From: Dehalococcoidales bacterium
GTDB taxonomy: Bacteria > Chloroflexota > Dehalococcoidia > Dehalococcoidales > RBG-16-60-22
Assembly: GCA_002688435.1 (NCBI GenBank)
Contig: NZCW01000009.1
Location: forward strand, 1 to 53,879
Direction of reading: 5' to 3'
DNA: 53,879 nt
Positions 7,421 to 8,798 of the stretch are shown here, one piece after another. Under the pieces are notes generated by a model. That model had not been told where the DNA came from. It did no database searches and saw nothing but the letters and a program-made list of their open reading frames with translations. Each line of letters opens with the position of its first letter. Position 1 is the stretch's first letter. The translations under genes were made by a program, and so were the position numbers.

Positions 7421-7546
7421 TAAAAATTCCTTTTTACTATTACCGAAGCCTAGTGGCAGCCCATCGCTGTTTTCACCTTAAATTGAAAGTCAGTCTAATG
7501 GGACTTATAAGTCACATACGATGTCCATGCCTAGTAGAGGGTAAAA

Positions 7547-8007
7547 ATGAAGGCGGACTGTGTGCTAGTATCACATTCCTATCGTTATAGGACTGATTGT
7601 TCCAGTGGCTGGTATCTCCGTTAGCTACGGAGGTCCGGCCACTGATACCGCCGAATGGCATTACAACCAAGGCTACGACCTGGTTGAGCAAGATCGTTAT
7701 CGTGAGGCGATAGCAGAGTTAAACCAAGCCATCGAATTAGAGACCTGACGTCAGCCAAAGCCTATAATAATCGTGGCTCCGTCTACCACTACCTGAGCCA
7801 GAACAAGAACGGACTATCCTGAACTTCAATGAGGCCATCCGTCTCAACCTCGAGTATACTCTGGTCTACTTCAACCAAGGTTCCGCCTACAAAGAACCAG
7901 GTAAGAAGGCCGAAGCCATCGCTAACTTCGAAAAGTTCATCACTCTAATTACGGACCTTCAGCCAGCCCAAACGGCCAGACGGCAGATTAAAGAATTGTT
8001 TAAATGA
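7547..8007 (+). pseudogene. Decayed membrane-anchored TPR protein
   Basis: Three frames must be joined to read one TPR protein. A start at 7547 with AGAGGG upstream shifts into a hydrophobic anchor (PIVIGLIVPVAGISV, from about 7578), then YNQGYDLVEQDRYREAIAEL and AIELET end at a TGA near 7747. The next frame gives SAKAYNNRGSVYHYLSQN, and after another shift near 7815 the third gives FNEAIRLN, VYFNQGSAYKE and AEAIANFEKFITL, ending at 8007. The repeats have the TPR pattern W/Y-L-G-Y-A-A-P-like spacing. At least two or three frameshifts make it a pseudogene unless the sequence has errors. Confidence 0.75.
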
Positions 8008-8021
8008 TATATCTAGAACTT

Positions 8022-8150
8022 AGCTTCCGGGTTCCAATAAGTCGTGGTTGACAGTTACATTTTTGTTTTATCCTTCAAATTACTTTTTGCTCTAGTTACT
8101 ATTTTACTTACCTCCCTTAATCAACCACGACTTATTAGAACCAGCTTCCG
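8022..8150. repeat. 8-bp target-site duplication flanking the MITE
   Basis: AGCTTCCG occurs at 8022-8029 and 8143-8150 immediately outside the terminal inverted repeats, and the bases beyond differ, so the duplication is exactly 8 bp. Confidence 0.8.
8030..8142. mobile_element. 113-bp MITE-like element
   Basis: Left arm 8030-8051 (starts GGTTCCAATAAGTCG) and right arm 8121-8142 are inverted copies, 21 of 22 bases matching. The same 8 bases, AGCTTCCG, flank both ends directly (8022-8029 and 8143-8150), as expected of a target-site duplication. The interior is AT-rich and has no coding frame. This is the structure of a non-autonomous miniature element moved by a transposase that makes 8-bp duplications (known for ISL3, IS6 and IS66-type elements); the parent element is not in the window. 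Confidence 0.85.
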
Positions 8151-8221
8151 CGATGGCTTGACTACCAATAGGTTGATGTACTGCGGTTGATATTAAAAAG
8201 TTGCATTCTCAGCCGAATCGT

Positions 8222-8366
8222 GATACGCTCTGGTAAAAGAATAGGTAACCGGAGGTGTCCGAGCGCAAGCGAGGGCCTAACTGGAAAGCAAGCCGGTGCA
8301 AGTCCGGCGCGGCCGCGCCACTGTGATTGATGGCCCAACCATCATAAGTCAGAACGCCAACCTCCG
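8222..8366 (+). ncRNA. Cobalamin riboswitch aptamer
   Basis: The B12-box core is clear: GCAAGCCGGTGCAAGTCCGG followed by CGCGGCCGCGCCACTGTGA, then AGTCAGAACGCC. GGAGGT at 8251 pairs with ACCTCC near 8360 to close the central stem. It precedes the cbiB-cobU operon by about 110 bp to the first start, so it very likely shuts the operon down when adenosylcobalamin is plentiful. Confidence 0.93.
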
Positions 8367-8368
8367 AA

Positions 8369-8403
8369 TCCTACATGCTCCGCGGGGAGGGGTAGGAGTT
8401 TTT
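8369..8403 (+). terminator. First terminator-like hairpin of the riboswitch platform
   Basis: TCCTAC at 8369-8374 pairs with GTAGGA at 8392-8397 and is followed by a T run at 8399-8403. It directly abuts the aptamer. Confidence 0.45.
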
Positions 8404-8419
8404 GTTAAGAATTTTCGCT

Positions 8420-8446
8420 TCCCCCTCCCGAGGAGGGGGGTTTTTT
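8420..8446 (+). terminator. Intrinsic terminator after the cobalamin riboswitch
   Basis: CCCCCTCC, loop CGAG, GGAGGGGG-type stem at 8421-8440 followed by six T (8441-8446). This is a strong intrinsic terminator and the probable off-state of the riboswitch. Confidence 0.85.
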
Positions 8447-8478
8447 ATATTCAAGAAATACTACTCACGGAGGTACTG

Positions 8479-8798
8479 ATGAAAAATAACTGCGCTGACT
8501 GGCGGCCATCTACCTAGTTTCCGTCATATTACTATTTCCCGGCATCGCCTGCGCGCCATCCGCCGAGGAGACGATCTCATCTCCAGTGGAAATCACCGAC
8601 CGATTGGGCCAAGTGGTGATGAAACCCGATATCGGCGGCTACAGCACCCCGAACACAGAAGTCATTACCGTGGGAAATATCGGGGAGGTCTACGGAATGA
8701 AAGACTACGTTTATACCCACCCAGTCAATGGCTTTCCCGTTATTCTGCTTGATACTAGTAATAACCGGTCGGCCAACACCAAAGGAGGTACGACTTAA
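8479..8798 (+). pseudogene. Decayed lipoprotein, BtuF-like N-terminus
   Basis: An ATG at 8479 with GGAGG upstream reads 12 codons to a TAG. A one-base shift near 8500 restores a lipoprotein signal peptide, AAIYLVSVILLFPGIACAPS, with a lipobox Cys, then EITDRLGQVVMKP, which resembles the N-terminal start of cobalamin-binding BtuF or other metal-chelate binding proteins. The frame ends at 8798 after only about 100 residues, against about 300 for BtuF, so the middle and end are missing. First gene under the B12 riboswitch, hence a lost corrinoid uptake protein is plausible. The second half (GNIGEVYGMKDYVYTHPVNG) is not recognised, so a short novel lipoprotein is an alternative. Confidence 0.5.

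Follow-up and report, generated by a model that had tools for sequence, protein, structure and literature searches.

A 113-bp element with inverted 22-bp arms and an exact 8-bp direct repeat at its borders lies in the window (the whole 53,879-nucleotide stretch of Dehalococcoidales DNA analysed here), raising the question of whether it is a mobile miniature, as a reading made from the sequence alone had proposed, and, if so, what moved it. We consider it very probable (about 93%) that the element is a MITE, an internal-deletion derivative of a long zinc-finger-type IS6-like element, that was moved in trans. The features of the locus and its surroundings are as follows.

7605-8007, + strand: TPR gene remnant directly upstream of the MITE (matches to Pfam TPR_2 and TPR_8, each short of its curated cut-off)
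8022-8029, no strand: left target site duplication AGCTTCCG, exact 8-bp direct repeat
8030-8051, + strand: left terminal inverted repeat GGTTCCAATAAGTCGTGGTTGA, 21/22 against the right arm and identical to both ends of C32:716-2905, a transposase-bearing element of the same genome
8052-8082, + strand: left interior, common to other 113-bp copies and absent from the transposase-bearing element
8083-8142, - strand: right ~60 bp, 93% identical to C32:2846-2905, the transposase-side end of the IS6-like element from which it derives
8121-8142, - strand: right terminal inverted repeat, read on the reverse strand as GGTTCTAATAAGTCGTGGTTGA and differing from the left arm at one base
8143-8150, no strand: right target site duplication AGCTTCCG, exact 8-bp direct repeat
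8236-8379, + strand: cobalamin riboswitch (Rfam RF00174, 41.1 bits), 85 bp past the right duplication

Re-reading the window bore out the coordinates, the 22-bp arms (21 matches) and the direct repeat of the sequence-only reading: the element spans 8030-8142, 113 bp between two exact AGCTTCCG duplications. That reading had judged a chance palindrome unlikely, and the chance origin is now excluded, because no other repeat pair or shuffle exceeds 13/22. Specifically, the window holds 858 exact 8-bp direct-repeat pairs 44-400 bp apart, and the inverted match of the AGCTTCCG-framed pair is 21/22 against 13 for the next best; the best inverted match in 30 dinucleotide shuffles was likewise 13. The element has no gene of its own, so the claim that its interior lacks a frame was right in effect; the only open stretch across it (+ strand, 8044-8190, 48 aa, GTG start) simply passes through. 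Its placement between a decayed TPR gene and a cobalamin riboswitch also held, with TPR matches upstream that are broken across different frames (7605-7748 and 7816-8007) and RF00174 downstream.

The proximity to a riboswitch invites a reading of the element as a structured RNA signal, whether a terminator, an attenuator or the upstream portion of the riboswitch leader, with a stem framed by a short direct repeat by chance. Its transcript would fold to an extended stem (-29.7 kcal/mol, z = -7.4), and it lies 85 bp upstream of the riboswitch. However, no T tract follows it and a terminator scan found none within the element; in a search of window 7440-8480 against 60 genomes, relatives retained the riboswitch whereas its upstream sequence, which includes the MITE stretch, was not kept; five further copies adjoin unrelated genes; and its ends match those of a transposase-bearing element. 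We therefore regard an RNA signal as extremely improbable. The same search found no empty site; apart from the riboswitch, nothing but weak TPR pieces gave a match.

The proposal of a MITE had come with the suggestion of searching the genome for other copies. Searching the window's own assembly (G000, 81% complete, with 1.20 Mb in 43 contigs; C numbers denote its contigs) revealed five more copies of the 113-bp type, four of them whole or almost whole and one cut by a contig end, for a total of six on six contigs.

C32:19128-19240 (C32b): complete, both flanks readable, no duplication
C15:20458-20570: runs into the contig end
C36:10881-10993: complete, both flanks readable, no duplication
C28:5283-5392: left end damaged
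C19:28259-28348: cut by the contig end

These five copies are 88-93% identical to the window copy, with those on C36 and C19 near-identical to each other, and all lie in gaps between plausible genes; one short open frame across the C36 copy is probably no gene. The MITE end pattern matched 22 times in G000 (at most three mismatches) versus 0 for a reversed control pattern. Neither C32b nor C36, the only other complete copies with both flanks readable, shows a target duplication, which fits age or later rearrangement without distinguishing between them. Among 100 genomes of relatives, the 113-bp MITE was found in none, with only two weak partial matches of ~40 bp. Scans for the MITE ends, which may omit the window's own genome, gave none in viral contigs and a single exact 19-base match in public genomes; this match, in an Erysipelotrichia MAG, had no partner end nearby, and we took it as chance.

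The sequence-only reading had also suggested looking for a complete insertion sequence bounded by matching 22-bp ends, and C32:716-2905 (L014) proved to be one. It is 2190 bp long; its 22-bp ends are perfect, an 8-bp target duplication of its own, GATTGGCA, flanks it, and it encodes an intact 350-aa transposase, P0001. Both of its ends are identical to the left arm of the MITE and differ from the right arm at one base, and its transposase-side end is 93% identical to the last 60 bp of the MITE. It has no counterpart of the ~30 bp at the left of the MITE interior; the first bases after the left arm (cAGTTA..) also occur at a single end at C42:6151 and, with one change, at C20:288. Together, the further copies and this full-length element in the same genome support the claim of a MITE. 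The match between the right half of the MITE and the transposase end of the full-length element would also suit a single decayed insertion sequence that shrank in place by deletion, with no mobile miniature family. But copies on six contigs share both the 113-bp deletion structure and its junction, so the MITE spread as a unit; we judge shrinkage in place to be very improbable.

P0001 places the arms, which had matched no insertion sequence recognised by the sequence-only reading, in an IS6-like element. It scores 125.9 bits against the NCBIfam IS6 transposase model NF033587, barely above the cut-off of 125, and matches Pfam DDE_Tnp_IS240 at 6e-20. Its catalytic residues are intact (D142, D201, E236 and K243), forming a DD(34)E...K arrangement in which K lies seven residues past E. 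The narrow IS6 score, together with an N-terminal zinc ribbon that reaches 37.3 bits against the IS1/IS1595 zinc-domain model (cut-off 28), could point to a mover from another family that makes 8-bp duplications and carries a zinc ribbon, of the IS1595 or IS1 type. The catalytic domain speaks against this, with an IS6 score far better than the 58.6 bits obtained with the IS1 catalytic model (cut-off 100) and no match to any IS1595 catalytic model in the profile search, and no other transposase with MITE-type ends was found; we consider such a mover very improbable. Searched by sequence, P0001 matched no solved structure, and a plasmid collection yielded only distant IS6 transposases (at most ~29% identity among the matches listed). 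The ends of C32:716-2905 begin GGTTC and then diverge from the short-clade IS6 consensus GGTTCTGTTGCAAA; the long IS6 clade has been described with other, longer ends (PMC6807381). The passenger of the element is a 270-aa protein with a signal-like N terminus and weak matches to SBBP/delta-60-like repeats.

In the IS6-like origin that we favour, the MITE would move only when the transposase of a full-length relative binds and joins its 22-bp ends, and insertion would duplicate 8 bp of target. The transposase on C32, or that of a lost close relative, would supply this activity in trans, and C32:716-2905 is the likely mobiliser. Because C32:716-2905 lacks the left ~30 bp of the interior, the MITE may descend directly from an element now lost, possibly the source of its left end. 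By analogy with IS26, movement would be replicative through a cointegrate that is later resolved by recombination: IS26 forms cointegrates only, and later homologous recombination is the proposed origin of its single copies flanked by an 8-bp duplication (PMC6807381). The locus poses the question of how an element with cointegrate-type relatives leaves a 113-bp copy with a clean duplication. It also adds a MITE, with its likely mobiliser in the same genome, to the IS6 group, for which few MITEs are on record.

Related elements extend across G000 and its sister genomes. A second IS6-like element of G000, C30:42033-43399 (1367 bp, target duplication TTAAGAAA), shares the end pattern GGTnnTATTTGCATTTGGTTG and 8-bp duplications with elements in sister genomes G005 and G026. 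Ends GGCAAAGTACA and 8-bp duplications mark a further group, found in G007, G026, G011 and G012. In each of the eight elements whose limits are set by ends and duplication, the transposase is accompanied by one or more additional open frames of sizeable length. From motif reading alone the G007 cargo frame appears DNA methyltransferase-like, and by reading, several IS6-like elements carry membrane-anchored cargo proteins; nine cargo frames searched against Pfam matched no family above its cut-off. Cargo elements that lack a transposase occur in G004 (465 bp, target duplication ACAAAAAT) and G018 (761 bp, target duplication CACCATAA). The cargo frames of the C30 element (L044), G026a (L069) and the G004 cassette (L111) cross the terminal repeat into the flank with no stop, so that insertion could create fusion proteins.

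Miniature forms are most numerous in G023, which holds 39 distinct paired MITE copies, mostly ~240 bp, with related IS6-like ends (loci L140-L152 and L156-L188; 40 were computed and one duplicate at L150 was removed). An exact 8-bp duplication flanks five of them, and at least six of the eight duplication bases match in twelve. No matching IS6-like transposase was found in this assembly, which is 78% complete. Flank sharing between the G023 MITEs, a potential trace of cointegrates or inversions, gave no real case; the single match reflected an alternative inner end chosen in both.

Whether the zinc-ribbon IS6-like elements of this bacterial family form a cargo system, with varied passengers, many read as membrane proteins, usually present beside the transposase of intact elements and with cassettes and MITEs moved in trans, is in our estimation an evenly balanced proposition. 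If true, it would amount to a sizeable, undescribed branch of IS6, a group for which a 2021 review names one passenger-carrying element, ISDsp3, and two MITEs, of 227 and 336 bp (PMC7986276). Judging from the elements in the sister genomes, IS6-like elements appear to carry cargo more often than has been recorded.

Other repeats and isolated ends were seen in G000. A ~30-bp repeat, TTAGCTTTGGGAATAGTTTCGCACATCCCTA, recurs at at least 14 places, including C6:2356-2478, C14:14249-14330, C33:29549-29633, C40:15140-15242, C15:713-747, C27:65-98 and C7:49435-49669. At five sites a TTGACA box follows its CCCTA end after 14-15 nt, and at four the repeat is fused to an IS6-type end, GGTTCCAATAAGTCGTGATAGT. 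An operator is one possible identity; a further mobile repeat, inserting upstream of promoters, is another. On C20 (L016:186-288), a 103-bp element that combines one end of the C6 type with one of the MITE left type, and has no duplication, adjoins a remnant of the start of the passenger gene. Single IS6-type ends at C17:5309-5769, C26:698, C2:27437 and C42:6151 lie beside passenger-gene remnants or short frames and are probably the remains of further cargo-carrying copies.

Among known systems, the closest counterparts of the window element are MITEBth2 and MITEHarch3, the IS6 MITEs named in a 2019 analysis that itself doubts the family membership of the long types (PMC6807381). Like them, the window element is gene-less, IS6-type and bounded by both insertion sequence ends (PMC7986276, PMC6807381); compared by description only, it is shorter than either, comes from a metagenome-type assembly, and has ends of the long zinc-finger type. 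Its full-length relative C32:716-2905 resembles ISDsp3 of Dehalococcoides sp. BAV1 (1456 bp, 319-aa transposase, 8-bp target duplication, passenger gene; PMC6807381, PMC7986276) in being long, of IS6 type, equipped with a passenger gene and flanked by an 8-bp duplication, a likeness of architecture only. The two are set apart by description, ISDsp3 being reported without an intact zinc finger whereas C32:716-2905 has one. P0001 is also like the transposases of IS6 clade h / clade VII (Clostridia), which have 340-353 aa and an N-terminal zinc finger: it has 350 aa, a CxxC...CxxC zinc ribbon and DD(34)E plus K, and its element is flanked by an 8-bp target duplication. The ends of C32:716-2905 start with GG, which is rare among long IS6 members (PMC6807381). 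The 465-bp and 761-bp cargo elements of G004 and G018 are comparable to mobile insertion cassettes (MICs), which are transposase-less cargo flanked by insertion sequence ends (PMC6542083, PMC5444012), and differ from them in having IS6-like ends; the 113-bp MITE, in contrast, is unlike MICs in carrying no cargo. Within the literature library searched, we found no paper pairing Dehalococcoides-type names with the full MITE term. The 113-bp element is a new, shorter IS6 MITE beside the two recorded by 2021; in itself it is fairly ordinary, and the wider set of cargo elements in the sister genomes is the more novel part.
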